DNA of 41,062 nucleotides from a virus. Positions 4,614 to 29,911 of this stretch are shown here, piece by piece (within the stretch, counting starts at the first letter, position 1; every line of letters begins with the position of its first letter). The notes under the pieces are model-generated. The model worked only from the letters and a program-made list of their open reading frames with translations, was not told the DNA's origin and ran no database searches. Made by a program: the position numbers and the translations under genes. The stretch covers positions 1 to 41,062 of IMG/VR virus record IMGVR_UViG_3300048589_001656; one strand, written 5' to 3'.

Positions 4614-5729
4614 TTAGTATTGAGCGAAAAAGAGTGCGCCAACTCCACCACTTGTTAGTGAGGCATCCTGAGTCACATCAAGTGTTGGTGTCGTTGTGCC
4701 TGTGTATGAGGTAAGGTAATCAAGATGAATGCGACCAACTGAACCAGTACCACCGTTTCCACCAGGTGAAGTTCCTCCAGCTCCAGCCGATGCAGTTATT
4801 TTTGTTGTTCCGAGAGTGGCTGTTTGGGCTTTTAGTAAACATGAGCCACCAGCCCCTCCTCCAGATGCTCGGTTTGGCCCGCCTGTTCCTGCTTGTCCTG
4901 ATAATGATATTGCTCCAGTAATCTCTGCTAATGTTTTCGTTATTATTATGACTATGCCACCGCCAATACCACCAGTTCCTTGTCCTGTTGAGAAACCAGC
5001 ACCACTTCCACCGCCTCCACCCAAATTCATATTTACTAATGAGGCTGTTCCGACTTGATTGCCTCCAGCTCCTTCTTGGCCTGTTGTCGCTCCAGGTGAA
5101 CCAGCTAAAGCGTTCCCACCACCACCACCATGACCACCAGCTTCACCACCTCCACCACCATTACCATTTGCGGTTTTTTGAATTGTTGAAGCTCCAGTGG
5201 TTCCCTCACCAGCATAACCATCTCCAGATGAAACAGATTGACCACCAACAAAACCTTTGTTGCTCCCAACAAGGTTTCCCGTTATCGTGGTTATCCCATT
5301 ACACAAGAAAGCAATAATGCCTCCCACGTTGCCATTCCAGGCCTTAGCGGTTAAGATGTGTCCTGAGTTTTGAGTAAATGAGGAATACTGTTTAAGTTGA
5401 ATAACCTGAGCTTGTGATGCTCCTGAGTCGGTGTAGGTATTTTTGAGTGGGCTAACGGTTGTGATTGTTCCTGCAACATATGAAGCAATCTGGTTAAGCT
5501 CCCAATTACCTGCTCCAGTTCCTCTTGATTGATGAATAAGTATCGGCTCGCCATTGGCAAACGAGGCGTTAGTAGCTGAGAGCGAGGTGGTGTCAACCGT
5601 ACCAGAACATGATGAGTCTACAGGCGCATCGGTAGCGTTTCCACTGCTTGAGTATGCTCCGTCAGAGCCGTCGCCATACTTGAGCCACCATGCAGTTGTG
5701 TCATCTGATCTAAATTGTGTAGAAGCCAT
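4614..5729 (-). CDS. Glycine-rich tail fibre/structural protein
   Basis: A 371-residue protein. The first 140 residues look like a beta-rich virion domain (MASTQFRSDDTTAWWLKYGD...). The middle (about residues 185-265) is extremely rich in glycine (GGGGGEAGGHGGGGGNALAG, then LGGGGGSGAGFSTGQGTGGI). The C-terminal part is beta-like again (SVGRIHLDYLTSYTGTTTPT). Glycine-rich polyglycine-II-like bundles occur in phage adhesin tips, which supports a receptor-binding or fibre role; this is inference from composition. The start overlaps the stop of the preceding tail gene (TAATG). The complementary strand of the Gly tract is Pro/His-rich and is a shadow. Confidence 0.6.
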   Translation of the reverse strand: MASTQFRSDDTTAWWLKYGDGSDGAYSSSGNATDAPVDSSCSGTVDTTSLSATNASFANGEPILIHQSRGTGAGNWELNQIASYVAGTITTVSPLKNTYTDSGASQAQVIQLKQYSSFTQNSGHILTAKAWNGNVGGIIAFLCNGITTITGNLVGSNKGFVGGQSVSSGDGYAGEGTTGASTIQKTANGNGGGGGEAGGHGGGGGNALAGSPGATTGQEGAGGNQVGTASLVNMNLGGGGGSGAGFSTGQGTGGIGGGIVIIITKTLAEITGAISLSGQAGTGGPNRASGGGAGGSCLLKAQTATLGTTKITASAGAGGTSPGGNGGTGSVGRIHLDYLTSYTGTTTPTLDVTQDASLTSGGVGALFFAQY

Positions 5730-6569: not shown

Positions 6570-9500
6570 TTAGTAGAGTTTGGCTAATTTCTGGCGCTTC
6601 AGCCTTATGGGTGCGCTTTGTCTGTTGCCCATCTCTTCGCTAAATGATTTATATCGTGCGCGTGGTTTGGCATATGCCTCAAGTGTTTTTCTGTATGAGG
6701 ACAAGATTTGTGCATCAGATATAGTCTTTTTACCTTTTTTACCCGATCCACCAAGTGATTTGAGTTTATCTCCCGACATGTAATGGGTGAGGTTCAAGCC
6801 ATATTCTTCATTAAGCATCTCAGCGACTGATTGCGTTAGCACTTTACCTTGATAGAGCTTGCGTAATAGGTCGGATAGTTCTTTGTCTGATTTAGCAGTT
6901 TTAAGAGTTTGATGTACCCACTTCGCCCGTTGCTCGGTGGTTTTGCTGCCGCCCGTGGCGTGTGACTCCAGCTCGTAGCCGAACACTTGCTCGGGGTTTT
7001 GCTTGCGCATCTGGTTGATGGTATTTACTGCCCGGACGTTTTTTTCCATCTCGGTGTCAAGTTTCTTTTTGCGTTCATCCTCGGTCAGGCTCGAGTCATA
7101 CGTGTACTTAATGCGGTTTCCTTTAGCGTTGTTAATCTCTTGAAGTGCTTGTTTGTAGAAGATTTTTGCTTCTTCTGGGTCACGCGGTATGGTGATTTTT
7201 CCATCTTCAGCTGATGCTTTTGATCCAGGCTTAATTACTTCACCAATTCTATCCAATAGACTACCACCATCTTCTTTTGACTTATCCTTGTTGAAGTATT
7301 CTTTTGATCCGGGCAAGCTATATTGTCCAAGAGCCGCTGCCTTAACATAGTTTGATGGCGTTTGCTCAATCTCAAATCTAGTCTTTCCACCCTTTGTTTT
7401 AGATGCTCCCTGATTTACCGCACCAACTCCCTCAAATGCTCTTTTAATTGCCACTCCGCCCGGCACAAATGGTACTAACTTGCTTCCGATGTTTTTGGCG
7501 TGGTCAAATGCGTCACGCTCATTGTTGTATTGATCGGGGTTATCCATTGCGGCATCTTTGACAGCACTTCCAAGTCCAAAGATGGGGCTTCCGCCAACTT
7601 TCACGCTTGGAATCAAGTCTTTAATATCCATGCCTAGTAATTCTCCAAAGGCAGTAATAATAAGCACGTTAGCTCCTGCCCATCGAATAAGTCCAGCAAA
7701 CTCCTTGTTCTTTAATTTCTCTCCAAGATATTCACCTTGTTTTAGTGAAAAACTCTGGAATTGAAGCAAAGTTTTGGCTACGTCTGATTGAAGTGCTACA
7801 GGGGTATCAACCTGACCAAAGGTAAACTGTGTTTTTCTGGCTATATCAATGCCTTCTTGAATCGCTTGATTAAGTGGCTTTCCCTGTGAAAGCGCTCGTT
7901 GTTTCGCGCCGTAGTATGCCGCACCTCGGTTCACTTTTTCGGCAAGATTGAACAAAGCAAACAATCCATTGTCGAAGCGCTCAATAACCCGTTTTTTGGC
8001 GCTTAGATTTCTATCCTGCACCATAGCATTGTCAAGCACGCCAACTCGCTTGAGTTCATCATCTCCACCAAATAGACTTCTCATGGTTTTGGCATAGCCG
8101 ATGGTGGTGTATTTCTCACCTAATTCTGCATAGGTGTTTGCTCCCTGGGTTAGGTTTTTCAAGGCAGTTCGTGGATTAAGTCCAAGCGTGCCTCTATATA
8201 CCATTCGGCGCATCTTTCGACTGACCTCTGCCATCGGTCTATCACCTAGCTTGTAGCCAATGGGTGAGTCTTTAACTAATTGATCGAACAATTCATCAAT
8301 CTTGGTTGGTCGCAAGTTCACCCGGTCAACATATTCTTTGACATACTCCCATGATTTTGCATCAAGCGGTGATTCTTCCAGGGTTCTTCCAGCCTTGTTT
8401 TGTAGTTCTCCAAGCGCCTGATCCATATGATATTTTCTGGTGGCACGCTTAACATACGCATCCACCGCTCTGAAAGCATCTTCGACATATCCTTTTTTGC
8501 CTAGGCGTTGCTCTAAAAATGGATCGTAAACTGATCCAGGCACTTTGTCTCTAATTAGTTTGGCTAGTTCGGGATCAAAGTCTTTATTGATTAAATCTTT
8601 TTCAAATATGTGAGTGATGTAATGAGTAATTCGTTTGTCTTCTGGTAATTGTAGTTTGTCTGCCCAGTTGGATAGATAGGTGCGCATCTCTTTGGCTACT
8701 TTGAGTTCGGTGGGGTTGAGTTTGACTTGTTTTTGTCCGTCAAGATATTTGAAGATGTTGGTTGATGATTGCTCATTATTCCCGATCTCATTCCACCACT
8801 TATTAACTGTGTCTAGTTCTTTGGGTAAGTCTTGTTTGTAATCAAGCTCTTTCTTGCGTAGTAATTCCGCCTCTTTTCCAAGTCCTAGTTTGCTTAATAC
8901 TCGATCAGGTGTTCTCAGGTAGTCGAGCGCATTAACCTTACCATTGGGGGTGGTATACTCATGGCGTGGAGCTGATCGAAACCCTATTAACGCTTCTTTC
9001 TCTGGTGGCAGTTGGATTTTTGGTGTTGTTTTTTGGACTATTGCTGTTTGTGGTTGTGAAGGCAATCCTGACAAAGCCTTTGTCTGAGCTTGATACGAGT
9101 TTCTGGGTAACGACTTTGGTAGTGGTAGGTTTCCTGTTTGCTGTGTTTTTCCTGTAAATGTTGGGTGTGAAAATGGTGGGATACTATTATCAAATATTCT
9201 CTTGGCTTCTGGTGCGCTTATTTGTTTGATTTGATCATCGTTATATCCAAGAGATCTTAGTTGTGTGGCATAGTTAAGCAAGTGACCAATTCGCTCTCTA
9301 GGGTTTTGGCTTGGTATACTATCGTTGAATGTTTGACCTTTTAATTGCCTTTGCTGCATTGATTGTAATGTTTGCACCCCACTATTTTTGGGGAGGGATG
9401 ATTGTTGATTCTCCAAAGAAGACAGTGCTGTATGTGTTAATGGTTGCATGGATGGGTTTAATTGGGGGGTTGTACTTAAAGTTTTTTGGTTAGGGTTTCC

Positions 9501-15508: not shown

Positions 15509-15543
15509 CTAGTCTTTAGATTGCTACTTGCTCAATTATATCA
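15508..15543 (-). promoter_or_regulatory. Late leader cassette D: extended -10 and AAGAC hairpin
   Basis: TGATATAAT (15535-15543), whose TGA is the stop codon of the 410-residue fibre gene. Fourteen bases on is TCTA-AAGAC-TAGA (15508-15520), which shares one base with the terminator stem. The closing pairs are U-A/A-U where other copies have A-U/A-U, a compensating change. It controls the connector and tail genes. Confidence 0.7.
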
Positions 15544-16773
15544 CGCAGTCTGCCATCCATTGTCGTAATACTTCAATACGGCATTTCCCCACGATCCGTT
15601 ATATACCTGTAATTGATCTGCAAGCCACGCGCTGTCATACCGCTTAATGTTTCCATTACCCAGGGAAACTGAGGCGCTTGGTATAGATAAGGTCAGTGGC
15701 ACAACATCACCACTCACTGACACACTTCTCGTGGTGGTTATGGATGGTGTAGGCGGCGATCCAGTTAAAGTAATCACATCGGCTGCTGTAGACGCATTCA
15801 TAATCGCGGTTAAAGTCGGAGAAGGGATAGAAGCTAATAGACCAACAACATCAGCATCGGTTGACACGTTTTGAGTGGCGGTTGTGGTTGGTTCTTGGGG
15901 AGACGTTGAAAGAGTAATTGCATCAGGAGTTGTTGAGGTATTTTGAATGGCTGTTATTGTGGGAGAAGGTATAGATCCACTAAGACTCACTACATCGGCA
16001 TTGGTAGAAACATTTTGGATTGCAGTTGCGGTTGGTGAGGGAATTGAGAGCGATCCACTAACAACATCTGCGGAGACATTAGCCTTACCTGTAATTGTTG
16101 GAGCAGATAATGATAGTGTGGTGGTAACTACGTCGGCACTCACTGAAACACTGGAGCCTACCGCCCATGATGCGAACACACCAGCAGACTCATTTGCAGA
16201 GCCAAAGTCCATAGTAACGGTTAAATTTGTTTGGGTAGTGGCAAATTCATCACTTGCCCCCGTATATGTCACAAAAGTCTCAAGCGTTGAGTCAAACTTC
16301 TCGGTTAAGCCAGTCCACACGGCAGTTGTGGCAGCAGCAGTGAGTCCGGCTGCAATGGCAAACCCTCCGGCTGGCACATCAATAGCATAGGTTGGATCGG
16401 CAGCAGTGCTGGTTGATGCGTCATGTTCGGTGGCAGAGGTCAAGCCAGTGGCTCTCCACATACCAATAGCACAACGCAAGACTGTTGTGGACCAAGTAAC
16501 CACTACATCGCCCGTTGTCCCCGTGGGCACGTTAGCAATGACAATCGCTGCAGCATTGCTGTTGGTGACTGTGTTGGTAACTTGCCTAACAATGGTGGCT
16601 GATACGCCACCAATGGTGATGCTTGAAAGAGTAAATGTTGCCCCTGCTTTACGAGCTACGGCAGAAACAATGATGTATCGGTCACTTGCCGCATCGCCTA
16701 AACTTTGTGAAGAAAAGGTATAGGCGTTTGTGTCTGCGGTGCTGGTAGCAGATTGAAGATAGGTGAATGCCAT
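15541..16773 (-). CDS. Tail fibre protein with ADVVT repeats, 410 aa
   Basis: Residues 1-200 form a beta-sandwich-like domain common to phage surface proteins (ATFTLSSITIGGVSATIV, TGDVVVTWSTTVLRCAIGMW). Residues about 205-375 carry seven copies of a 23-26-residue repeat built on S-x-ADVVTLTGSIPSPTITAIQN. The short C-terminus (KRYDSAWLADQLQVYNGSW) resembles fibre tips. The same repeat forms most of the end of the larger gene just upstream, so the two are related by duplication. The start is one base past the preceding stop. Likely a receptor-binding or decorative fibre. Confidence 0.65.
   Translation of the reverse strand: MAFTYLQSATSTADTNAYTFSSQSLGDAASDRYIIVSAVARKAGATFTLSSITIGGVSATIVRQVTNTVTNSNAAAIVIANVPTGTTGDVVVTWSTTVLRCAIGMWRATGLTSATEHDASTSTAADPTYAIDVPAGGFAIAAGLTAAATTAVWTGLTEKFDSTLETFVTYTGASDEFATTQTNLTVTMDFGSANESAGVFASWAVGSSVSVSADVVTTTLSLSAPTITGKANVSADVVSGSLSIPSPTATAIQNVSTNADVVSLSGSIPSPTITAIQNTSTTPDAITLSTSPQEPTTTATQNVSTDADVVGLLASIPSPTLTAIMNASTAADVITLTGSPPTPSITTTRSVSVSGDVVPLTLSIPSASVSLGNGNIKRYDSAWLADQLQVYNGSWGNAVLKYYDNGWQTA
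15668..16150 (-). repeat. ADVVT repeat array, seven units
   Basis: About seven tandem units of 69-78 bases encode variants of ADVVTLTGSIPSPTITAIQNVST. Individual units differ by substitutions, and the most conserved parts are the ADVVT and the SP/AP-T-T cores. It shares its consensus with the array at 17055-17900. Confidence 0.75.
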
Positions 16774-16774
16774 A

Positions 16775-19627
16775 CTAACTCGTATCTACCCATAGATCCC
16801 CCGTTGCAGGTGAGGTTGGTTCACTGCTGCTGACTGTAATCTTTGGATTAGCGTTAAACTCTGCCCATTCATCGGTGGTGGTGTTGTAGACCTCAATAGC
16901 ATTTGTTTCACGGTTAAAGCCAAACAAACCTTTCTTTCCCGTTGGTCTGCTTGAGGTTGTCCAGGTTGGGATGCGTGCCTTCTTATTCATCACCAATCCA
17001 AAGGTGTTGATGTCAATACCCCATGAGGCATTGCCTGAGTATCCACCCTCTACCGCGAGTGTTGGTTCTGGAATTGAGAGTGAGCTGGTAATCACATCGG
17101 CACTCACTGAGGCGTGCATAATGGCGGTTATGGTGGCAGCTGGTATCGAGCCAGTTAGTGTGACAACATCGGCAGAGACACTTGCGTTTCCGGTGATTGT
17201 CGTGTCAGGTATCGAGCCAGTTAGTGTAATTACATCTGCTGTTGTGGAGACATTTTGGATACCCGTGACTGTTGGTTCTGGCAGACTTGAAGCCAAGACC
17301 ATCGAATCTGGCACGACTGAAACGAACCAAGTGGTGCTTACTGTTGGTGCTGACAGGGAAAGTGTGGCCGTGACCACGTCAGCGGTGGTGGATACATTTT
17401 GTATTCCAGTGACGGTTGGGGATTGGGCTGAGAGAGTGGTGGTGAGTAGGTCAGCATCAGTGGATACATTTACCACGTTGTCGGTTGATATGGTTGGTTC
17501 AGGGAGCGTTCCCGTTATCGTGACTACATCGGCGGTGGTAGACATATTCTGTATTGCAGTCACAGTCGGGGCAGGTATAGAGCCCGTCAGAGTAACCACA
17601 TCAGCAGAGGTGCTTGCGTTCTGGATTCCTGTAACCGTTGGTGCTTGGACAGAAAGGGTTTTGGTAACCACGTCGGCGGTAACATTGGCTTTACCCGTAA
17701 TGGTAGGTGCCTGGACGGAAAGAGTGGTAGTGACCACATCCGCGGCTACATTTGCCTTGCCCGTAACCGTTGGAGCAGGCAGTGATCCTGTAAGTGTAAC
17801 CACATCTGCATCCACGCTCACATTAGTGGCACCGCTTTCGGCTGTGACCGTTGGTGCTGGCAAAGATAAGGTTCCCGTTACCACATCTGCAGCAGTTGAT
17901 GATGTGAGATGGTTAAAGTTGTCAAATATAACGGTGGTCGAACCGCTCCCAGGATTCTCTACCCCAAAGAACACATTGAGCGCAGTTAGATCATAGCCAG
18001 TCGCATCACTGGCTCGGTTTGTCCAATTCGCGCCATCGGCTGAGGTATCCCAATAAACAGTTCCAGAGGCTTCACGTATCCTAAACCACTTGTGTACACT
18101 TGAGTCATAGGTTGCGCGATAAATCTCGGTATATGTGCTTTGGTCTGGTGACTTATACGCCACAATCTCATCGGTTGCCCCGTACTCAATACCCCAATAA
18201 AGGTCAACCGTGTCGTTGTACAGTTCGAGAATATAGGTAGTGAATGAGAGTGAGGTGTCGCCAGCGTTTACTAGTTCGATAAAAGCAGATGACTCGGTTA
18301 AATCCCATAGTTCATCAGAGGCAATACCGTTGTATGTTCCTTGTCCTGTGGTGGCTGTAACCACCATTTGCCCTCCTGTTTCAGAGGTGTTGTCGTCATT
18401 CCACAGAGTTGCGTTTATTGAGTTGTCGTTAAAGTTGTCGGTGAGGTTTTCTACCTTTGTTCTATAGGTGGCGTAGATGGAAACGCGGCAATCTGCGCTT
18501 ATGATTTCAGCAGTTAGTGGGTTTGCTGGAGCGTTGGTGGCATGATAAGTTAGTGTGGTGGATCGTAACAGGTCATCATCTGTAACTGTATCGTATCTAT
18601 GCCCAACATTTAGGGAATTAGACCATATTCCCATTGAATAGGAAGTACCACCAGTAATGGAGGCACTAGTTACATTAAGAGTTGTCCAATTATTTGCGGT
18701 AAGAGTAGCTTGTGCGCCATATGTTACTCTGGGAAAATTATTTGATCCAGAGTTGAATGCTCCATATAGAATAGGTCTAACAGTACCTGCGGTTATTCCA
18801 TAATAAGTTATTGAGTTTACTGTGCCCCCCGCTGGCGCATCATAATCTCCAGTTCCCCCGTTATCAAAACCCATAAGCACGTCATTATTATCTGGAGTGA
18901 ATGTGTTGGAAGTTCCACCCACGCTCGTATACCCAAACGTAGGGTCAACAATCACGGGATACACTGCTTTGTCTAAAAACTCTTGCGGTACGGTTACGCT
19001 CAATACCCCTGCTTGATCATCAATATTAAGCTCTGCCCAAGCCTCGCTTCCATCTTTGTCTGTTACCTTTGGTCGGTAGATGTGAAACGCCTTACCCGTC
19101 TTGTACTCCATTCCATCGGCTCGGTTCATGCCACCTTTGGTCTTGTGGTAGACAGCGTATGAACCCACCACGTTTTCTGGTCGTGAAGCACCCTCGTCAA
19201 TTTCTTTTTGGGTTAGGGCTGGCTGATAGAAGAAGTTTAATTCTTTGGTTTGAATCGTAGCGGTTAAGACGTTTGATTCAGGCTTTTTAGGCAATACCCA
19301 CTCAAATTCTAGTCCACCATCTTCGCCAATCTCGCCTGGGTCTAGCTCGTATTGATGCACCTCATAGTCTGGGGTGACATACTTAATGAGCTTACCCTCG
19401 GTTCGCACCACTGCTTCGGGGTGTTCCTCGGCTCTAAGACTGAAATTTACCTCGTTATCCCATCGTGAAATCTTCGCCTGTGGTTTGAAGTCTGGCTGCT
19501 TACTATCTCCGATTTCAATCTCAATTTTATCCCTGGGATTATCGGTAACGGCTCGCTTAAAAGTGTTATCTTTGACTGCAAACCTCTCGGCTATGATGGT
19601 TGATTTTCTTGATGGTATATCTGCCAT
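16775..19627 (-). CDS. Large tail fibre/adhesin with LamG-like domain and ADVVT repeats, 950 aa
   Basis: Residues 1-240 form a charged beta-rich N-terminal domain (EVNFSLRAEEHPEAVVRTEG, VPQEFLDKAVYPVIVDPTFG) resembling virion-attachment domains. About 245-400 is beta-rich and Asn/Thr-rich. About 400-580 looks like a laminin-G/concanavalin-like lectin domain (YWGIEYGATDEIVAYKSPDQ, then KWFRIREASGTVYWDTSADG, FFGVEN). About 585-868 carries 12 copies of the ADVVT repeat. The C-terminus has the common phage-fibre end (GLFGFNRETNAIEVYNTTTD, then GDLWVDTS). A sugar-binding adhesin is the best reading. Its ribosome site lies inside a hairpin at 19632-19668. Confidence 0.65.
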   Translation of the reverse strand: MADIPSRKSTIIAERFAVKDNTFKRAVTDNPRDKIEIEIGDSKQPDFKPQAKISRWDNEVNFSLRAEEHPEAVVRTEGKLIKYVTPDYEVHQYELDPGEIGEDGGLEFEWVLPKKPESNVLTATIQTKELNFFYQPALTQKEIDEGASRPENVVGSYAVYHKTKGGMNRADGMEYKTGKAFHIYRPKVTDKDGSEAWAELNIDDQAGVLSVTVPQEFLDKAVYPVIVDPTFGYTSVGGTSNTFTPDNNDVLMGFDNGGTGDYDAPAGGTVNSITYYGITAGTVRPILYGAFNSGSNNFPRVTYGAQATLTANNWTTLNVTSASITGGTSYSMGIWSNSLNVGHRYDTVTDDDLLRSTTLTYHATNAPANPLTAEIISADCRVSIYATYRTKVENLTDNFNDNSINATLWNDDNTSETGGQMVVTATTGQGTYNGIASDELWDLTESSAFIELVNAGDTSLSFTTYILELYNDTVDLYWGIEYGATDEIVAYKSPDQSTYTEIYRATYDSSVHKWFRIREASGTVYWDTSADGANWTNRASDATGYDLTALNVFFGVENPGSGSTTVIFDNFNHLTSSTAADVVTGTLSLPAPTVTAESGATNVSVDADVVTLTGSLPAPTVTGKANVAADVVTTTLSVQAPTITGKANVTADVVTKTLSVQAPTVTGIQNASTSADVVTLTGSIPAPTVTAIQNMSTTADVVTITGTLPEPTISTDNVVNVSTDADLLTTTLSAQSPTVTGIQNVSTTADVVTATLSLSAPTVSTTWFVSVVPDSMVLASSLPEPTVTGIQNVSTTADVITLTGSIPDTTITGNASVSADVVTLTGSIPAATITAIMHASVSADVITSSLSIPEPTLAVEGGYSGNASWGIDINTFGLVMNKKARIPTWTTSSRPTGKKGLFGFNRETNAIEVYNTTTDEWAEFNANPKITVSSSEPTSPATGDLWVDTS
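17055..17900 (-). repeat. ADVVT repeat array, about twelve units
   Basis: About twelve tandem units of 60-78 bases encode variants of ADVVTLTGSIPAPTVTGIQNVST. Neighbouring units are often nearly identical at DNA level while others have drifted, which suggests repeated unequal crossing-over. The antisense strand is open for 341 codons only because of this composition. Confidence 0.75.
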
Positions 19628-20991: not shown

Positions 20992-21024
20992 CATAAGTCT
21001 TTTATGACTGGTCTTATTATATCA
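20990..21024 (-). promoter_or_regulatory. Late leader cassette E: extended -10 and AAGAC hairpin
   Basis: TGATATAAT (21016-21024), with TGA the stop codon of the upstream glycosyltransferase. Seven bases on is GTCATAA-AAGAC-TTATGGC (20990-21008; seven pairs including one G-U), so the RNA would begin at the hairpin. Its last two bases are part of the terminator stem. It controls genes 20946-19691. Confidence 0.75.
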
Positions 21025-21771
21025 CCTAAGCGGCACTGGTTCTTTGTTTACCAAATGCAATACCTCACGCACATCACCATCTATGTACATGTATTTCTGA
21101 CCATCAAATCCATGTTTCTTGATAAAACGCTGCTTCAGTGTTTCAAACTGACTCGATAAGTCATCGACGTGTAAGGTAGCTCCCATGCGATGTTGCACAT
21201 AGGCTGACGGGTTTGTGTACAGTTTGTAACCATGCGCCATCAAACGCACCCACATATCGGTGTCTTCAAAGTTGCAAGGGAAGTAAGTTTTCCAGTCAAA
21301 ATATCCCACCTTGTCAACAATCTTTTTGGAAAGCATAAAACACGCGCCAGGGAACCAATTCCACACCTCAGTTAACTTGTCTCGGTAGGGCATACCCTCA
21401 ACCTGCGGACAAGCTGCACCACAATCCTTGTTCTCGAAGCATTTAAGCATCGCCTCCACCCATCCTGGTGAGACTATTGTGTCATCGCCCAAGATGATCA
21501 CCTTATCGTGAGTTGCCAACTCAATGCCTTTATTCCATCCAATCGAGATACCTTGGTTTTGTGTATAACGTCTGTGTTTGTCGGCATGATCCAGTACCCA
21601 TGACTCATCAATGGTTGAGCCGTTATCAACCACAATCAGCTCGTAATTATCGGTGTGTTCGATGATTGAGTTAACACAATCCTGCATCATATCGGGATCG
21701 TAGTTGTCCGGCATTTTGTCCATCTCACGGTGAAAGAATAGCAACACAATGGAAACAGGCTCACTCGCCAT
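21022..21771 (-). CDS. Family 2 (GT-A) glycosyltransferase, 249 aa
   Basis: A 249-residue nucleotide-sugar glycosyltransferase. It has an N-terminal beta strand (SIVLLFFHRE), YELIVVDNGSTIDES, the acceptor-side YTQNQGISIGWNKGIELATH, and the metal-binding LGDDT near residue 94, then PGWVEAMLKCFEN and CFMLSKKIVDKVGYFDWKTY, typical of family GT2. There is no membrane span. Ribosome site GGAGGAACTAT. Last gene of the glycan operon; its TGA stop is part of the next promoter. It probably adds one residue to a glycan built with the other operon enzymes. Confidence 0.8.
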   Translation of the reverse strand: MASEPVSIVLLFFHREMDKMPDNYDPDMMQDCVNSIIEHTDNYELIVVDNGSTIDESWVLDHADKHRRYTQNQGISIGWNKGIELATHDKVIILGDDTIVSPGWVEAMLKCFENKDCGAACPQVEGMPYRDKLTEVWNWFPGACFMLSKKIVDKVGYFDWKTYFPCNFEDTDMWVRLMAHGYKLYTNPSAYVQHRMGATLHVDDLSSQFETLKQRFIKKHGFDGQKYMYIDGDVREVLHLVNKEPVPLR

Positions 21772-22432
21772 ATAGTTCCTCCCAGTTAATACTTGGCGCT
21801 AGATAATCCTTGACCATATGTGTTGCAAACGATGGAATCGGGACCCAGAGCGTGTGTCCGGCATATGCAAGCTCTCTCCAGACCTCATCATCTAAGTAGC
21901 CATACTTTACGAGCGTGTCATAGTTCTCTCGAATAACATCAGCGCTTGTTGCCCACGTCATCGTGTTGCGCTCGGTAGTGCGGTAGTGATGGTTGCCAAC
22001 CAAAGCAATCTCGCACACGGGAGAATGGATTGATTGATCAAGGTAAAAGTTCAAGTGATCATAGGGACTGACTATATCAAGCTCGCTTAGTGCCTCAAGA
22101 TAGGTTTTTCCCACCACGCCACGGTAAAGATAATCACACTCTTGTAAAAGCACATAGTCGTCAGCTTGTGCCGCTAGGGCATAGGCTCTAAGCATCGTGC
22201 CGTTAATCCCAAGCGTTGATTCTTCCACATTAAACTCGAAGGGCAGGTTTTCAAATAATGAGCGATATTTCTCACCGCAATGATCAAGCAGAAACGTCAC
22301 ATCCAACTCAATATCACTAAACGCATGAGTGAATGAGTCTAAGCAGAGTTTATTCAGCTTAAACTTATCATCCTGATAAATTGGTGATGGATTGGTGCTT
22401 GGAATACCACACATCCGGTAGATTACGCGCAT
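21761..22432 (-). CDS. Putative glycosyltransferase-like protein, 223 aa
   Basis: A 223-residue protein with GT-A-like features: a strand and helix start (MRVIYRMCGIPSTNPSPIYQ), LDVTFLLDHCG, and QADDYVLLQECDYLYRG with an acidic pair (about residues 90-106) where these enzymes bind the nucleotide. Later ERNTMTWATSADVIREN and PSFATHMVKDYLAPSI resemble acceptor-domain elements. The family is not certain. Ribosome site GGGGAGCAT; it overlaps both neighbours by about ten bases. Confidence 0.5.
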   Translation of the reverse strand: MRVIYRMCGIPSTNPSPIYQDDKFKLNKLCLDSFTHAFSDIELDVTFLLDHCGEKYRSLFENLPFEFNVEESTLGINGTMLRAYALAAQADDYVLLQECDYLYRGVVGKTYLEALSELDIVSPYDHLNFYLDQSIHSPVCEIALVGNHHYRTTERNTMTWATSADVIRENYDTLVKYGYLDDEVWRELAYAGHTLWVPIPSFATHMVKDYLAPSINWEELYGE

Positions 22433-23586
22433 ATGCTCCCCACAACTTCATCAATAAAGGCAATCATTTCAGGGGTTATGCTTGGATGGACTGAGAGAAA
22501 CATGCCATCACGCATCACTAGGTCAGCGTTTACCATCTCACCCTCACATGAATAAGGCGCGTCTTTATATGCTGGATGCCTCAAGATGTTTCCTGAAAAG
22601 ATGGTCCGACACTCGATGTTGTTTGCTTCAAGCGTGTCCATGACTAACTTGCGCTTAATACCAGAACAAAGTAATGGGAATGAGAACCAACACACGGTGG
22701 CATTGTCCATGCTATCAACTAGGGTGAATTGCGGATACTTTTCAAACACTTGGCGCATTAAGCGATAGTTTTCAAGTCGTCTTTCTCTAAACTGTTCGAG
22801 TTTTTTAAGTTGCACCCTACCTATGGCGCACTGAAGCTCTAGTGGCTTCATGTTGTAGCCAATCTCCTCGTAGACATAGCGTGAGCGGTAGTCATCAGGG
22901 AAGCCAGGATAGTCGTAGATTGCATCAGTGCCATCAGCCCTGCCCCACTCTCTGATTTTCTTCATGCGGTCAGCCAGTGCTTCATCATCGGTTAGACAAC
23001 AGCCGCCCTCCCCAGTTGAGATTATGTGTGCCGCGTGGAATGAGACACAAGATACATCGGCAAAGGTTTCAACAAACTTACCATCAACCAAAGTGCCATA
23101 CCCATCACAGTTGTCTAAGATGATTTTCACATCATTGCCCACAATCTTTCTAATAGCCGAAAGATCATTGGGATTTGAGGCGATGTTTACCGCAATTACT
23201 GCCTTAATGCCTCGTGCAAGTTTCAGCTTCTCCAGATCCATGTTTAGAGTCTTCAAATCAACGTCTACCACATGTGGAATACAACCACATTGCAGGATTG
23301 CATTGAACGCGGTAGGAAAATTGACTGCCGGAATAGCAACAAGCGATCCCTTTGGTAAATGCAAGGCTGTCAAAGCCACCAGTAGCGCAGATGAGCCGGA
23401 ATTGGTCAATACAGCGCGTTGTACTCCTGTCTTTTCTGCCAGTTCTTCCTCGAGTGCAAGAGATTCAGGTCCTACGGTCCAGCGTTTGCCACCATGATTG
23501 TCAAATACCGCCAACATAGCGCTTCGTTCTTCATCTCCCGCAATCATGCCCCCATACTCAATTCGATCAATCTTTGGTCGAAACAT
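22423..23586 (-). CDS. RfbH/ColD-like PLP sugar 3-dehydratase (DegT fold)
   Basis: A 387-residue DegT/DnrJ/EryC1/StrS-fold enzyme. The internal-aldimine lysine of aminotransferases is replaced by histidine in SFHAAHIISTGEGG, as in RfbH (E1) and ColD, which use PMP to remove the 3-hydroxyl of a 4-keto-6-deoxy sugar. Further RfbH-like blocks are REWGR, YEEIGYNMKPLELQCAIGRV, FSGNILRHPAYKDAPY, GEMVNADLVM and LSVHPSITPEM. The four cysteines that hold the 2Fe-2S cluster in RfbH are absent, which points to a ColD-like mechanism. Start at 23586 is preferred because AAAGG is spaced properly; ATG 23595 is too close. The product would be a 3-deoxy or 3,6-dideoxy sugar nucleotide. Confidence 0.8.
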   Translation of the reverse strand: MFRPKIDRIEYGGMIAGDEERSAMLAVFDNHGGKRWTVGPESLALEEELAEKTGVQRAVLTNSGSSALLVALTALHLPKGSLVAIPAVNFPTAFNAILQCGCIPHVVDVDLKTLNMDLEKLKLARGIKAVIAVNIASNPNDLSAIRKIVGNDVKIILDNCDGYGTLVDGKFVETFADVSCVSFHAAHIISTGEGGCCLTDDEALADRMKKIREWGRADGTDAIYDYPGFPDDYRSRYVYEEIGYNMKPLELQCAIGRVQLKKLEQFRERRLENYRLMRQVFEKYPQFTLVDSMDNATVCWFSFPLLCSGIKRKLVMDTLEANNIECRTIFSGNILRHPAYKDAPYSCEGEMVNADLVMRDGMFLSVHPSITPEMIAFIDEVVGSICA

Positions 23587-24496
23587 AGATTTCATCCTTT
23601 TTCTGAATAATTGGTAACTGCTTCTGCTCTTGTACCCATTCCCATGTCATCGCCAATCCGTCTTCAATCGGCGTGTTTATATACTTTGTTAGTTTCTGTT
23701 GATTAGTGTGGTCAGCGAGGAACATAGAGATCTCTTGCGGTCTGCCCGGGTGCATTTCCACGTGCCCCTTGATGCCTGTTACTTGTTGTACTAAATCAGA
23801 TAGTTCTTTGATGGATATGTCTTGTTCAGCTCCAACGTTTAGTGTTTGGTTGTCAAAACTAGAGTCAAGTGAATCAACCAACACCCGTACCACATCGTCA
23901 ACATATGAGAATGCTCGACGCATTTCACCGTGACCAAAGAGTTTGTATGGCTCACCATCCATAAGTTTGCGCATGAACAGCGCCACCACGTTTTTATACG
24001 GGTCACTCATGTTTTGTCCTGGCCCGTAGACGTTGTGAGGTCGGAAAATTGTGTACTTGAAGCCATACACCTTAGCCATGATGCGCAAAATCTGCTCACA
24101 AGCTAGTTTGTTGACTCCATATACATCTTTGGGGATAGTCGGACCATCTTCTTTGTAAGGCACGTTTGCCTCACCATAGACCGCTACACTTGAGGTGTAG
24201 ATAAACTTTTTCACATTCACGTTGATTGCAGCCCGCAAAGTATTGGCAAAGATCCCTATATTATTGTGGATCATATCAACGGGTGAGATCTGACCACGTG
24301 CTTCTGCGGCATTGGCTGCTAGGTGATAGACCACATCGGGGTAGATTTGACTAAACAACTTGTCCACTTGCTCAGTATCGTTAAGGTCACAACCAGTAAC
24401 CAGGTCAAGACACGACACATCATGCTCTTGCTCAATCAGTTCTCGAACTAGGTTAGAGCCGATAAGCCCCGATGATCCAGTAACTACGATTTTCAT
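23567..24496 (-). CDS. NAD-dependent sugar-nucleotide epimerase/dehydratase (extended SDR), 309 aa
   Basis: Starts MKIVVTGSSGLIGSNLVREL, the Rossmann TGxxGxxG motif of extended short-chain dehydrogenases. CLDLVTGCDLND holds the adenine-binding acidic residue. The catalytic Ser and Tyr-Lys are in FIYTSSVAVYGE and YGVNKLACEQ, and the substrate part has IFRPHNVYGPGQ. These enzymes oxidise and reduce nucleotide sugars at C4 (epimerase) or remove water at C4/C6 (dehydratase). ATG at 24496 overlaps the upstream stop (ATGA). In this operon it probably prepares the 4-keto or 4-epimer sugar used by the PLP enzyme next door. Confidence 0.85.
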   Translation of the reverse strand: MKIVVTGSSGLIGSNLVRELIEQEHDVSCLDLVTGCDLNDTEQVDKLFSQIYPDVVYHLAANAAEARGQISPVDMIHNNIGIFANTLRAAINVNVKKFIYTSSVAVYGEANVPYKEDGPTIPKDVYGVNKLACEQILRIMAKVYGFKYTIFRPHNVYGPGQNMSDPYKNVVALFMRKLMDGEPYKLFGHGEMRRAFSYVDDVVRVLVDSLDSSFDNQTLNVGAEQDISIKELSDLVQQVTGIKGHVEMHPGRPQEISMFLADHTNQQKLTKYINTPIEDGLAMTWEWVQEQKQLPIIQKKDEIYVSTKD

Positions 24497-25257
24497 AGGC
24501 TGTAAAACTCCATCAACTTCTTGATAATGGTTTTGCATCGGTGCGTGTAGGTGTGGTGTTTAAGAAAATGCTTTCTTGCATTGTGAGTAATCTTCAACCG
24601 CAGATCATCATCGGCGAGTAGTTTCTTTAGAACTTCCAATAGTTCTTTATGTGATGAATAACCCATGTAATGCACTCCATCGGTTGCAAATTGGTCAAGG
24701 TATTGATTGCGCTCCATGACCTGACACCCAAGCGCCATTGATTCAAAGAAGCGCAAGTTAACGTCAATGATTTTCCTAGTATGGTTAAAGAGAATCTTGC
24801 ATTTGTTTAGGTACATTGGTACATCTTGACCGGGTATGTCACTTCGATTAAAGAAACTATTTGGATACGCTCCCTGGATAACATTGAGATACTGATTGCG
24901 CTCCTCATAATATGGATTACCGATAAACCCAATGTCGTAGATTTTTTCCACATCCACTGGCTTGTGTAATTCTGGATCAGCGGCATAGGTAACAAGCGCG
25001 CAGTTATCGCCCATGATGAGTTTGTGATCCTTGCCATATGACGGTAGTGTGTAAAACAAGTATTCAGCCCTTCTGTTCATCGGATAATCTTGGCTGTAAT
25101 AAACAGGGAGCAACTCATCCTCTCGGGGTATCTTCGGCTCCATATATATCAACACCTCACGCTCACCAGGTAATTGGTGTTTTTCCATTTCCTGAGCTAA
25201 CAATCCAGGGAATAAATACTCAGTGTATTCTTCTCTCACAATACTTACTTTTCCCAT
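24493..25257 (-). CDS. CgeB-like glycosyltransferase (GT-B type), 254 aa
   Basis: A 254-residue protein. It has YDIGFIGNPYYEERNQYLNV and YLNKCKILFNHTRKIIDVNL, then FFESMALGCQVMERN and DGVHYMGYSSHKELLEVLKK LLADDDLRLKITHNARKHFL, the motif order of CgeB/glyco_trans_1_2 glycosyltransferases (GT-B fold). The EX7E-like end (RFFESMALGC) binds the donor nucleotide. It overlaps the 1080-residue gene by 13 bases and the epimerase by four. It is shorter than most GT-B enzymes and may lack part of the N-terminal acceptor domain. Confidence 0.7.
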   Translation of the reverse strand: MGKVSIVREEYTEYLFPGLLAQEMEKHQLPGEREVLIYMEPKIPREDELLPVYYSQDYPMNRRAEYLFYTLPSYGKDHKLIMGDNCALVTYAADPELHKPVDVEKIYDIGFIGNPYYEERNQYLNVIQGAYPNSFFNRSDIPGQDVPMYLNKCKILFNHTRKIIDVNLRFFESMALGCQVMERNQYLDQFATDGVHYMGYSSHKELLEVLKKLLADDDLRLKITHNARKHFLKHHTYTHRCKTIIKKLMEFYSL

Positions 25258-28200
25258 TCAGCCTCCCACTTCTTTGCTAGCTTAGAAGCATTCTTCTGTA
25301 TCCATTTGGCCGCGCCCTCTTGATCTAATCCATCGGGCATCCCGTTATCGAGTTTGATCTTGCGGTCAATGCTTGAATTTCTAACGAGTGGTAATTTTCT
25401 GTTCTTAGTCATGTTCTCAATGAAGGTGTAACGAGCATCATTTAAGTTCCACTCTCGTTTGACGGCATTCTCTTTATGTCCGGTTAAGTATTCCCAGAGG
25501 TCAAGGCAAATGCCGGGCAAGCGCTCGTCCACAATCAAGCCGAAACCCGCTTTAAGCGCTCTAAATGCAATCTCGGTATTGTTGAAGCCTAATCCATCAT
25601 CCTGAAACTCCCACAAGCCATTGAGTTTTCTAGCAATGTGTGTCGGGATTGCGCCCACGTTCATTTCAAAGTCAAAGGGGATATTGGAGTAACGGATCAC
25701 ACCACGCCCGATGCGAATGTTTTTGCGAATAAACTTGCCCACCACATCAGTTGAGCCCTCGAACCAGTCTTCTTTGTTTTCAAGGTTTGGTTTATTCTTT
25801 ATTGAGTAATACACATCAACAGGTGCGAGTAAACAGTCTGGGTAACGCTTGTGTAGTTTGGCTACACGCTCAAGTCCCCAGTGGGGCAATAAAATAAAGT
25901 CTTGCAACCAGAAGATGAGCTGTCCCTTAGCTGAAAAGATTGCCTGGTTATCAGCCTGAATAAGTGCATAGTTATACTTGCTCTTGTCTAGTTTGCCGCG
26001 CATGTAGCGAATGTCTAGACCATATTTAGCAGCATACTTATCTGCCAAGTGCTTGCGGTCTTCGGGGTAGTCATCAACAATCAGCCACTCGATATTCTTG
26101 TAAGTCTGTTTGCTCAAGTTCTCTGCCATTAAGTTCCAGAAGCCCGATCGAATAGTGGGTGTGAACACAGTGATCTTTACGTCTTGGGGTAGTTCTCGCG
26201 TGAATACCTCTGTCCAACTCTTAGCAACTTTTGACCAGTCCCACTCGGCAGTAAACTTGGTGTCAATCGTGTAGGGCTTGTTAAGAAAGTCGATCAAGGC
26301 TTGGGTGTATGCCTTCAGCGACTCGTGAGTAAATGGATCAACCGATAACCGCTCGCCACGCTGTACGGTAGTCTCCAGTGCGCCATAGTTATATGTGATT
26401 GGCACTGTGCCTAGAGCCTGGCAATAGCGGGCAGTTATACAGTCGATCTCTTGGAAGTTGGTGGGGTAAGCCCACACACCACATGAGGCGGCTATGTTGT
26501 AAAGTTCTGTCTTTCCCACCTTGCCGTGATAGGTAATGCCATCCTGTTTTAATAGCTCCATCATCTGATCACGCCACTTCATCTTGTGGGCTACGTGTCC
26601 CAAGAGCTTATTAAACAAATCGAAGCCATAACACACGTGTAACGTTGCGTCCGGTACAGCTTGTTTGATAATAGGCCAGATGTTGAGTAGGTTTTCAAGT
26701 CCTCGATCCGGGCTTGAACCATAGAAGATTGCATGGGGATCGCGCTTAACCTTAACCGAAGCTAGTTTGTCGTACTCAATCCCATTGCCAATAATCTGGA
26801 ACTTGTTGTCTGGCACATGTGGTAGTAGTGATCGGTGATACTCTGACTTGACCATGATGTAGTCAATGCGCGAAAGAAGCTCATCGTCATACTCACCCAC
26901 CTCTGGCACATCATGCAGATCAAGTAATATGAGCCGGGCATCAAGCAGGTTTTTTCTGATGAAGTGTGGATTGCGCCAAGATATAAGAATGTCAAACTTA
27001 TCACGGTGATTGAAGCGTTGGTAGTTCAAATACTCCACGCCGTCATAGACACCCTCATCCGCACCAACACTGGTATAGACGGTCACCTTATAACCCAACT
27101 TTGTCCAGTGCTTTGCTAGATGGACAATAGCTTCTTCAGATCCACCTATCCCTTCTTTAAGTGACTTAGGACTCCACTCAAGCACGTCTATGGCAGCATA
27201 ATAGGCAATACTCTTTTCAGGCCAGACAAAGGGTGAAGCAAACTCGTTGCGCAAGTGAGTGGCATAAACAGTATTCTCAACGTCTGGTGGTAATCCCTCA
27301 AGAAGTGTGTCTATCTTACCTTGCAAGCCACGAGCGTCTAAGTCTTGGATCATCTCAGTGACGTTCTTCATCCAGTTAGTCCATTTTTGCAATTTCTGGA
27401 CACTCTCAATCCGCTTATCGTTTTCTTCTGATGGATCAATGTCGTAGAGCATTGAGGCAGCTTTAATGGCTTGGGGAAAGTCTTTCTTGTTGAACCAGAT
27501 GTAAAACAGCACCATGAGCGCATTGCGCTTGTCCTCAAGTGGGGTAATGATCATGGCAGTCTTTGGCTGGTCCATGTTCGTGCCGACCTTGATGTGATGC
27601 TCTGCCTTGTCAAAGTCTTTTAATGCTGCATAGGATCGAGCTAGGTTTATGTGCCAAGTGGGAAACTCGGGTCGCTCTTTAATGGCTGACAAGAAACACA
27701 CAATTGATTCATCGTAGTGTCCGAAGTGATATTCGATGTTACCCAGGTAATTCCAGGCAAAGGCTTTTTCCTCATCCCATCCCGAGTGCTGCAAGTAGTC
27801 TTGAAACAAATTAAACGCTCGCTTGTAGGCAACATCGTTTTTGGTGTCGTATAAGCACCGGGCTAGGTAGTATTCTGTTCTCGGGTCAATCTCATCAATC
27901 TTGCCTGCAACCATATCTTTGCGCTGTTGCTCATAGTCAGACTGTAATACGTTGATGTTGCGCAGTAATCCATCACGCTTGTTTTCGTCAGTGGGGTAGT
28001 GGTTAACGTAGAAATCTTTGATAAATACCGTGTTGACACGTCTTGATGGGATCAGGGTTTCGTGGAGCTTGGCTTTCCACTTATACACGCCATAACGCAC
28101 GATACGCTCTCTGGGATGGACAATTAAAGCATTGCCTTGCGCATCAAGATCATAATTGTAGTCGGTGAAGACTGCATCAAGCCCCTTGGTACTCATCACC

Positions 28201-28487
28201 TCAATCACTTCGGGGATGGTGTCTGCCTGTTGCACCACATCATCACTATCAATCCACAACACATATTGTGTATCACTTGGTACTTGTTCAAGGTTAAAGT
28301 TTCGAGCTGCGGCAAAGTCGTGATTCCAGGGAAAGTATGACCAGGTAATCTTGGGATCATCCCATTGTGGTTTGTTGATCTTGGTGGTGGTGATATAGAT
28401 GTGATCAACGTAGTCGTAGACGCTTTTAATTGCTCGCTTCAGATGTGGGTGATCACCCTCAGTAATCATACAGAGTGCTAGGTTCAT
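25245..28487 (-). CDS. Three-module glycosyltransferase, 1080 aa (GT-A, TPR, GT-B, GT-A)
   Basis: Residues 1-110: a GT2 module with MITEGDHPHLKRAIKSVYDY, SYFPWNHDFAAARNF and D80-S-D-D in LWIDSDD. Residues about 180-350: TPR-like helix pairs (YYLARCLYDTKNDVAYKRAF, WNYLGNIEYHFGHYDESIVC). Residues about 430-740: a GT4-type GT-B module (GIGGSEEAIVHLAKHWTKLG, then GSSPDRGLENLLNIWP, HGKVGKTELYNIAASCGVWA). Residues about 755-1000: a second GT2 module (ITVFTPTIRSGFWNLMAENL, LIVDDYPEDRK). Such fused enzymes build a chain of two or three sugars on one protein. Ribosome site GGAGAGAAATTTTAACC; gene follows the 136-residue protein. The end is basic (KWEAEWEK). Confidence 0.8.
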   Translation of the reverse strand: MNLALCMITEGDHPHLKRAIKSVYDYVDHIYITTTKINKPQWDDPKITWSYFPWNHDFAAARNFNLEQVPSDTQYVLWIDSDDVVQQADTIPEVIEVMSTKGLDAVFTDYNYDLDAQGNALIVHPRERIVRYGVYKWKAKLHETLIPSRRVNTVFIKDFYVNHYPTDENKRDGLLRNINVLQSDYEQQRKDMVAGKIDEIDPRTEYYLARCLYDTKNDVAYKRAFNLFQDYLQHSGWDEEKAFAWNYLGNIEYHFGHYDESIVCFLSAIKERPEFPTWHINLARSYAALKDFDKAEHHIKVGTNMDQPKTAMIITPLEDKRNALMVLFYIWFNKKDFPQAIKAASMLYDIDPSEENDKRIESVQKLQKWTNWMKNVTEMIQDLDARGLQGKIDTLLEGLPPDVENTVYATHLRNEFASPFVWPEKSIAYYAAIDVLEWSPKSLKEGIGGSEEAIVHLAKHWTKLGYKVTVYTSVGADEGVYDGVEYLNYQRFNHRDKFDILISWRNPHFIRKNLLDARLILLDLHDVPEVGEYDDELLSRIDYIMVKSEYHRSLLPHVPDNKFQIIGNGIEYDKLASVKVKRDPHAIFYGSSPDRGLENLLNIWPIIKQAVPDATLHVCYGFDLFNKLLGHVAHKMKWRDQMMELLKQDGITYHGKVGKTELYNIAASCGVWAYPTNFQEIDCITARYCQALGTVPITYNYGALETTVQRGERLSVDPFTHESLKAYTQALIDFLNKPYTIDTKFTAEWDWSKVAKSWTEVFTRELPQDVKITVFTPTIRSGFWNLMAENLSKQTYKNIEWLIVDDYPEDRKHLADKYAAKYGLDIRYMRGKLDKSKYNYALIQADNQAIFSAKGQLIFWLQDFILLPHWGLERVAKLHKRYPDCLLAPVDVYYSIKNKPNLENKEDWFEGSTDVVGKFIRKNIRIGRGVIRYSNIPFDFEMNVGAIPTHIARKLNGLWEFQDDGLGFNNTEIAFRALKAGFGLIVDERLPGICLDLWEYLTGHKENAVKREWNLNDARYTFIENMTKNRKLPLVRNSSIDRKIKLDNGMPDGLDQEGAAKWIQKNASKLAKKWEAEWEK

Positions 28488-28489
28488 GG

Positions 28490-28900
28490 TTAAAATTTCT
28501 CTCCTCCCCTAAATCCTGGATAACGCTTGGCAAACTCGCGCCAGTATTTCTGTGTGCCATATTCTTCAATCTTGTGTGAGGCAATCTTTTGGAGTAGATA
28601 GGTCAACTCTTGGGGTACTTCAACCAGTGAGCGCCAAGTCTTATTATCAGTCGAGCCATGCTTGTTCTTGCGGTTGGCTCGATAGCGAGCCATAAACTTC
28701 AGATACTCTTTATGCTCAATGGGGTATTTCTTGGCCCATATCTCCAAACAAAAGTCGGTGATCTCCCAGATGTTCTTGTGTCTAACTTTGTAGATTAACT
28801 CATCAACTGCTTGCACCATCCATGCTGGATAAGTTTTCTGAGACAGGGGATCGGTGTAGTAAAACTTTGCGTCTACATCCTGATTGAGTGCTGAGGTCAT
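28490..28900 (-). CDS. Hypothetical protein, 136 aa, first gene of the glycan operon
   Basis: Not recognised. It is helical with many charged and aromatic residues (YPAWMVQAVDELIYKVRHKN IWEITDFCLEIWAKKY, EYLKFMARYRANRKNKHG) and a basic C-terminus (FAKRYPGFRGGEKF). It follows the capsid terminator without a clear promoter, so it and the glycosyltransferase operon may depend on read-through from the capsid operon. It ends two bases before the 1080-residue gene and may work with it. Confidence 0.6.
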   Translation of the reverse strand: MTSALNQDVDAKFYYTDPLSQKTYPAWMVQAVDELIYKVRHKNIWEITDFCLEIWAKKYPIEHKEYLKFMARYRANRKNKHGSTDNKTWRSLVEVPQELTYLLQKIASHKIEEYGTQKYWREFAKRYPGFRGGEKF

Positions 28901-28984: not shown

Positions 28985-29911
28985 TTAGAGTCCTAAACGG
29001 TAACCACCCTTGTACACGTGTGAGCGTGAAGAATGAGCGATTGCAGTAAGTTCTGCAACCACGTGTCCTTTTTTGTTATCACCTGTGACAGAGTTAGCGA
29101 CGTGTTTGGGATTACGGAGGTAACCGATCTTGCAGAGTTCTTTGCGGATCATCAACATACCATGACCAGTAGTTGTACTGGCGGCTGGCATATCTTTGTG
29201 TGCGCGAAGCTCATGGATACCGAAGTCTGATTCGTACACGCTGATAGCGCGGACTAATCGCTTGTCATCGGCTGATACGTTTCTTGTGTTTCCAGCAGTA
29301 AACAGTGAAACATCACGTTTCAGGTTTCCTGATAAAAGCACCATGTCAGCGACGAAACTATCGGTTGCATTCCACGATAACGTGAATTGATCGTTCCATT
29401 CGTTCTCAGTCATGGACGTGCCTGAAGGTCGTAAAGACGAGCTACCGATACCTGCTACCTGGTTAATGAAACCAGACATAGTTGCGGCAACACCTGATGC
29501 ACCGGAAACTTTGGAAGCGCGGATGACGGCAAACTCCATAGAGTTTTTAAGTCTTCGCATCGCATACCCGAGTTCTCGAGCATAGGCATCTTTAGGACTG
29601 ACTTTGTTGACCACGATTTCAGTTTCGGTAACGCTAAATGGTTTCTTGATGATTTGAGTAACGTTGTCACGCATGGTGGCGACGGTCAAATCAGAGAAGC
29701 TATTGTCATCACCTTGGACTGATGCATCGTTGGCTGTATCACGACTGATATACATTTCAGGCCATTGATGGACTGTTTGAGATACTGATTCAGTACCTAA
29801 AATAGAAGTCAACGGATTGTCATCGGGGGATACATCCTGGATTTCATCCAAAATATCTTCCCGTTTGACGGTCTCCATGTATGTGTGTAAAGCACCTGCT
29901 AATTGAGCCAT
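28985..29911 (-). CDS. Major capsid protein, SU10/HK97-fold type, 308 aa
   Basis: A 308-residue protein with the pattern of the SU10-like (DUF5309) HK97-fold capsid proteins: N-terminal EDILDEIQDVSPDDNPLTSI LG, HQWPEMYISRDTANDASVQG, FSVTETEIVVNKVSPKDAYA RELGYAMRRLKNSMEFAVIR (the long spine helix), VYESDFGIHELRAHKDMP (P-domain), and an end KGHVVAELTAIAHSSRSHVY KGGYRLGL. It is followed by a strong terminator and preceded by the scaffold, the usual order for an abundant capsid protein. No protease gene is visible, so the short pro-region may not be cut. Confidence 0.85.
   Translation of the reverse strand: MAQLAGALHTYMETVKREDILDEIQDVSPDDNPLTSILGTESVSQTVHQWPEMYISRDTANDASVQGDDNSFSDLTVATMRDNVTQIIKKPFSVTETEIVVNKVSPKDAYARELGYAMRRLKNSMEFAVIRASKVSGASGVAATMSGFINQVAGIGSSSLRPSGTSMTENEWNDQFTLSWNATDSFVADMVLLSGNLKRDVSLFTAGNTRNVSADDKRLVRAISVYESDFGIHELRAHKDMPAASTTTGHGMLMIRKELCKIGYLRNPKHVANSVTGDNKKGHVVAELTAIAHSSRSHVYKGGYRLGL

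Follow-up and report, generated by a model that had tools for sequence, protein, structure and literature searches.

The stretch of DNA analyzed here, called the window, is the whole 41,062-base IMG/VR virus record IMGVR_UViG_3300048589_001656. Directly behind its major capsid protein gene lies a glycan cassette whose genes all share the minus strand and for the most part overlap (Table 1). From the capsid gene onward, the order is a 136-aa protein, a 1080-aa glycosyltransferase, a second glycosyltransferase, an SDR, a DegT-fold protein with His at its active site (hereafter the His enzyme), a 223-aa protein and a family-2 glycosyltransferase. GC content in the cassette equals that of the rest (0.46 vs 0.455). 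At the end of the cassette away from the capsid gene (15541-19627), two Ser/Thr-rich proteins are encoded that have many short degenerate repeats of the ADVVTLTGSIPAPTVT type; they are possible glycan acceptors, and none of the four relatives compared has an equivalent. The NCBIfam AgmC N-terminal model hits the protein encoded at 4614-5729 with 108 bits, under the cut-off, which is odd for a phage tail-region protein. A tyrosine integrase is encoded at the window edge (1-936, plus strand), and the phage is therefore probably temperate.

Table 1. Capsid gene and glycan cassette of the window.
Feature	Coordinates	Strand	Remarks
Major capsid protein (PHROG 1328)	28985..29911	minus	fixes the cassette position
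136-aa protein, no assigned function	28490..28900	minus	between capsid gene and cassette; syntenic ORF of ~144 aa in relatives
1080-aa multidomain glycosyltransferase (GT2 - TPR - GT4 - GT2)	25245..28487	minus	N-terminus GmaR/SunS-related
Glycosyltransferase (Glyco_trans_1_2)	24493..25257	minus	profile match
Extended SDR, predicted C4-ketoreductase or 4-epimerase	23567..24538	minus	S-Y-K triad, without dehydratase Glu
His-type DegT-fold protein, predicted PMP-dependent NDP-4-keto-sugar 3-dehydratase without Fe-S cluster	22423..23586	minus	His190, Asp161, Ser185
ORF of the DegT-fold protein	22423-23595	minus	390 aa counted from the upstream ATG (23595)
223-aa GT-A-fold protein, predicted glycosyltransferase	21761..22432	minus	conserved E-C/A-D and THM motifs
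Family-2 glycosyltransferase	21022..21771	minus	profile match

Residues of the His enzyme are numbered from the ATG at 23595 and not from the alternative start at 23586. The latter is probably the true start, since AAAGGA immediately precedes it and the Met-Phe pair with which the protein would then begin (M4-F5) is invariant in nine aligned phage copies. Pfam assigns the protein to DegT_DnrJ_EryC1 (PF01041; 2.6e-72, 244 bits against a cut-off of 19.8) and PHROG labels it 'aminotransferase', so that both name it just as a sequence-only reading of this DNA had predicted automatic annotation would. The best NCBIfam match is RfbH, at 275 bits and below the NF011936 equivalog cut-off of 423. In a search of solved structures, E1 (3bcx) ranks first and ColD (2gms) next, both of them His-type 3-dehydratases.

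Two scans of IMG/VR yielded 17 further phage copies of the enzyme, most of them 59–77% identical to that of the window, and scans with neighboring genes added three more, for 20 in total; L006 and L007 are near-duplicates, as are L013 and L015. A first scan of genome contigs with a narrow profile gave no matches, and none of the 80 loci kept from the genome-contig scan held a bacterial or archaeal relative more than 37% identical. Recent gain from a host is not supported, given this best bacterial identity of 37% and the even GC content. With 24.9 kb of the window as query, megablast returned no match among named phages. Mobile elements occur in 3 of the 17 copies. L021 (IMGVR_UViG_3300020213_000065) has an in-frame 263-aa intein (7227-8015) inserted at the cofactor site, exactly between the PLP-site Asp-Asn and the next Cys, and in L018 (ORF from 7491) and L020 (ORF from 2691) the beginning of the gene is preceded, in the same frame and without a break, by sequence resembling HNH homing endonucleases.

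In all relatives that extend as far as the capsid gene, the cassette stands immediately behind it. Relatives have the same gene set in the same place, with the SDR, glycosyltransferase and His enzyme partly reordered. The 1080-aa glycosyltransferase seems to be a fusion, as ORFs of about 600 and 500 aa are separate in relatives such as L002, L219 and L220. In three of the four relatives compared, the His enzyme is the best-conserved protein: identity to the window is 76% in G001 (terminase 57%, capsid 30%), 72% in G002 (terminase 24%, capsid 31%) and 63% in G008 (capsid 34%). In G017 the SDR, at 65%, is slightly above the matched fragment of the His enzyme (60%). Conservation exceeding that of capsid or terminase suggests that the enzyme matters strongly to how the particle functions. 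The enzyme is an optional module. L219 and L220 have the syntenic capsid gene, big glycosyltransferases, SDR, GT-A protein and family-2 glycosyltransferase, with no DegT protein in the whole record. An obligate triad of SDR, His enzyme and GT-A protein is thereby ruled out; the usefulness of the SDR and GT-A protein does not depend on the His enzyme, and the substrate of the SDR need not be a 3-deoxy sugar. In MW202524, a named circular podovirus, methyltransferases fill the slot behind the capsid gene and big glycosyltransferase.

The window protein was aligned with E1 and ColD. The window motif SFHAAHIISTGEGG pairs with SFYPAHHITMGEGG of E1 and with the SHHIATMEGG stretch of ColD, and in the alignment of all copies His190 falls in the column that holds the catalytic His of E1 and ColD, which is the site of the PLP lysine in aminotransferases. 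The sequence-only reading, which had His in place of this lysine in an SFHAAH motif, thus placed it correctly. Of the 192 DegT sequences in the alignment, 191 carry His in this column, and the one exception is a gap. HAAH is found in all 17 relatives first found (as SMHAAH in L009 and SFHAAH in the others) and in the three copies found later; the internal-aldimine Lys of aminotransferases is absent from all 21 phage copies, window included. Recurrence of the motif in 20 further IMG/VR records rules out a sequencing error or chance as the origin of the His. Also conserved are the PLP aspartate D161, S66-S69, S185 and the NSGSS block that binds phosphate. ColD and most E1 copies have a second His after the catalytic one; the window has Ile there, a point against the dehydratase reading. 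RfbH-type blocks had been proposed as well, and agree with E1 being the best sequence match and with a shared AH-(H/I)-I-x-x-GEGG block.

The Fe-S loop of E1 is missing. Where E1 has RDCYCAPGCDNTC, the window has RADGTDAIYDYPGFPDD, and the three loop cysteines (CYCAPGC; CxCxxxC, [2Fe-2S] binding) are absent across the whole phage clade. The earlier statement that no Fe-S cysteines are present holds for these three and not for the fourth: Cys163, next to the PLP aspartate, is retained. It is no sign of a cluster, because ColD, which is cluster-free, has the same Cys.

An AF2 model of the window protein (pLDDT 95.5) is nearest to E1 (Z 52.1, rmsd 1.6, 380 aligned residues) and then to ColD (Z 50.1), with Lys enzymes trailing at Z of about 48; fold alone does not settle the reaction type. 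In a maximum-likelihood tree of 58 proteins, Lys-type enzymes fall outside all His types (100/97) and ColD forms its own clade (100/97). The phage proteins form a single clade (100/99) that includes those of the distant phages L117 and L118. Together with the non-Fe-S proteins L025 and L180, in a weak grouping (92/83), this clade adjoins the Fe-S E1/RfbH clade, and all of these split from ColD (99/94). An enforced clade of phage proteins and ColD was rejected by the AU test (p=0.005), which excludes a ColD orthologue, and a true RfbH with its cluster is excluded by the missing loop. With His at the Lys position and a grouping apart from Lys types, the window protein is, by sequence, a His-type member, in agreement with the original proposal of a His-type dehydratase rather than an aminotransferase. 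By descent, as judged from this tree, it is neither ColD nor RfbH, and assigning it the sugars of those enzymes, as had been suggested, is not supported. It appears that the phage enzymes make up a third, Fe-S-free lineage of His-type 3-dehydratases, seen so far only in viral contigs of the collections scanned.

We next consider the partner enzymes. Exactly one SDR is present in each of 20 records, and that of the window is the sole SDR of its record. In core phages it keeps the S-Y-K triad and lacks the dehydratase Glu (TSSVAVYG; SSVAVYG-type rather than the T-D-E signature). Val/Ala and Asn occupy the columns of Cys109 and His179, which we take to be the C5-epimerization residues of the ColC/GDP-fucose synthase family. 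With the triad kept and both the dehydratase Glu and the epimerization Cys/His absent, the enzyme is likely a C4-reductase or 4-epimerase, and a colitose-type ColC is not likely. L117, with a His enzyme 42% identical to that of the window, differs in this respect: its single SDR is a 4,6-dehydratase (TDEVYG; RmlB model, 206 bits), the only one among those aligned that bears this signature, which supports a 4-keto-6-deoxy substrate in L117. Behind the L117 capsid gene are an FkbM-like methyltransferase, fucosyltransferase-like proteins and the RmlB-like 4,6-dehydratase, with the His enzyme close by. No 4,6-dehydratase was found in core phages, and no NTP_transferase (nucleotidyltransferase of sugar-nucleotide synthesis) in 11 records; on this gene content, the host must supply the 4-keto sugar. 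An E3-type reductase domain (PF00175) was likewise not found in 11 records; these records are possibly not complete, and the host could provide a reductase. A specific product (colitose, abequose or paratose) had been named before. It finds no footing in core phages, in which no 4,6-dehydratase was found, and the colitose reading in particular is not supported by a sole SDR that lacks the Cys and His of colitose-type C5 epimerization; the name of the sugar is not obtainable from sequence. Although Pfam returned nothing for the 223-aa protein, a structural model of it (pLDDT 89.8) shows a GT-A fold; its sequence conserves an E-x-D motif and, at the C-terminus, THM. This fold is common to glycosyltransferases and nucleotidyltransferases, so that a glycosyltransferase is the likelier, and not the sole, reading of the model.

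E1, ColD and SpnQ have the first half of the chemistry in common: a sugar-PMP Schiff base forms, the C4' proton is transferred to His and the 3-OH is lost (PMC8987622). The second halves differ, as electrons arrive via Fe-S clusters in E1 and SpnQ, while in ColD the intermediate is hydrolyzed and PMP is remade with glutamate (PMC8987622). We consider it fairly probable that the phage protein is an Fe-S-independent, PMP-dependent C3-dehydratase of a host 4-keto sugar, with ColD-like regeneration, finishing by the SDR and transfer likeliest to a virion protein. A host 4-keto nucleotide sugar would form a Schiff base with PMP, His190 would take the cofactor C4' proton and the C3-OH would depart. 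Hydrolysis of the intermediate as in ColD would then give a 3-deoxy-4-keto sugar, ammonia and PLP, and glutamate would regenerate PMP. The neighboring SDR would reduce or epimerize C4 to a finished 3-deoxy, probably 3,6-dideoxy, sugar, and the GT-A protein and other cassette glycosyltransferases would attach it, with a virion protein as the likeliest acceptor. We infer catalysis, regeneration, the SDR role, substrate and acceptor; the fold, His at the Lys site, missing Fe-S loop, clade, cassette synteny, high conservation and lack of matches for the upstream enzymes are direct observations. As the protein has no cluster loop and a search of 11 records gave no reductase, a ColD-type second half is the most economical assumption. 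The negative result for E3 in those records is as this route would predict, and reduction by an Fe-S relay is unlikely. Since a phage-ColD clade is rejected, the similarity to ColD-like hydrolysis would be one of analogy and not of inheritance. In a characterized route to Campylobacter heptoses, a ColD-family enzyme (PLP and glutamate) is followed by an NADPH C4-reductase (PMC10440746).

The original proposal had left the destination as host or particle glycans. Position in the structural operon and the nature of the first glycosyltransferase, whose N-terminus matches GmaR (a flagellin transferase; 2e-7) and SunS (a peptide S-glycosyltransferase; 6e-6) and which has OGT-like TPRs, favor virion-protein glycosylation. 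The link to O-antigen is less supported: the phage particle is the likelier target, as judged from the cassette. Virion glycosylation is described as established in mycobacteriophages where PMC12619734 and PMC11256854 cite Freeman et al. 2023. That the same enzyme serves to place the sugar on the host surface, in a lysogenic serotype conversion that alters receptors, we regard as unlikely, if worth keeping in view. The integrase makes lysogeny possible, and O-antigen clusters are the best-known setting of His-type dehydratases, as in L026, where gmd adjoins fcl-like and DegT genes. However, in the relatives that extend to the capsid gene the cassette is part of the structural block behind it, away from the integrase; the cassette proteins scanned included no flippase, polymerase or lipid-carrier protein, and GmaR and SunS, which the first glycosyltransferase resembles, are protein-directed.

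Dehydration is also preferred over the idea that the His-type enzyme acts as a C4-aminotransferase or carries out both reactions, which we think improbable. Amino transfer is retained as a rival because a His-type 3-dehydratase, SpnQ, carries out transamination in the presence of PLP and glutamate if its reductase is absent (PMC8987622); a phage protein with neither Fe-S loop nor detected E3 might default to the same reaction. In contrast, E1 and ColD showed no transamination under SpnQ conditions (PMC8987622), the Lys of Lys-type aminotransferases is missing from every phage copy, the scan of cassette proteins turned up no N-acyltransferase and a search of 13 records gave no Hexapep match.

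A self-contained cassette, in which an ordinary host sugar is oxidized at C4 by the SDR, loses its C3-OH through the His enzyme and is re-reduced at C4 by the SDR to a 3-deoxyhexose that keeps its 6-OH, is very doubtful: it would account for exactly one SDR in each of 20 records, with the 4,6-dehydratase signature confined to L117 among those aligned, and for the epimerase-type triad of the core SDR, but the coenzyme site of the SDR is variable (Asp, Ser or Arg after beta2) and the SDR of L117 is a 4,6-dehydratase. To our knowledge, no pathway runs by SDR C4 oxidation, 3-deoxygenation and SDR re-reduction. C4-dehydrogenases that act without 6-dehydration do exist (PMC10440746). It would be a long shot that this phage-specific third His-type class and a single SDR amount to self-sufficient 3-deoxygenation of ordinary host nucleotide sugars, with neither a 4,6-dehydratase nor Fe-S, and coat virions with a 3-deoxyhexose that the host does not make.

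RfbH and ddhC are already listed among viral metabolic genes (PMC10653327), and phage-encoded RfbH as such is known. What is new is an Fe-S-free lineage, found only in viral contigs of the collections scanned, with a fixed place behind the capsid gene and unusual conservation. This candidate third branch joins a mechanistically famous group in which the reviewed routes are those of E1/SpnQ and ColD. Because the phage line appears nearer to the Fe-S enzymes than to ColD, it would allow a direct test of the switch between reductive and hydrolytic 3-deoxygenation. The cassette suggests that phages build deoxy-sugars next to their capsid gene, and L219 and L220 offer a natural comparison for the effect of the DegT-fold enzyme. 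As databases call the enzyme an aminotransferase, its true abundance is hidden.

Among known systems, E1/RfbH/DdhC, the CDP-4-keto-6-deoxyglucose 3-dehydrase, is closest. It resembles the phage enzyme in fold, AH-(H/I)-I-x-x-GEGG block and catalytic His, and is its nearest large clade and best match in sequence and structure. The phage enzyme differs in having no loop cysteines, no E3 found, a score of 275 against 423 bits and about 31% identity. ColD, the GDP-4-keto-6-deoxymannose 3-dehydratase, shares the catalytic His, absence of an Fe-S loop and a similar length; unlike ColD, the phage protein has Ala rather than Ser before the His, lies in a separate clade (AU p=0.005) and is not adjoined by gmd or a ColC-type SDR. 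RfbH types of cyanophages (e.g. Synechococcus phage S-H68) and other viral contigs are likewise phage-encoded, of the His type and set in glycan cassettes. However, they retain the Fe-S cysteines and are about 29–36% identical, and the S-H68 cassette has its own annotated 4,6-dehydratase. Of the Fe-S RfbH types in cyanophage records, one is annotated as a 3-dehydratase. DegT/DnrJ/EryC1/StrS aminotransferases (ArnB, WecE, perosamine synthase) have the fold and PLP-binding residues in common with the phage enzyme, which carries His where they carry Lys and belongs to the His-type group of the tree, outside of which the Lys types fall.
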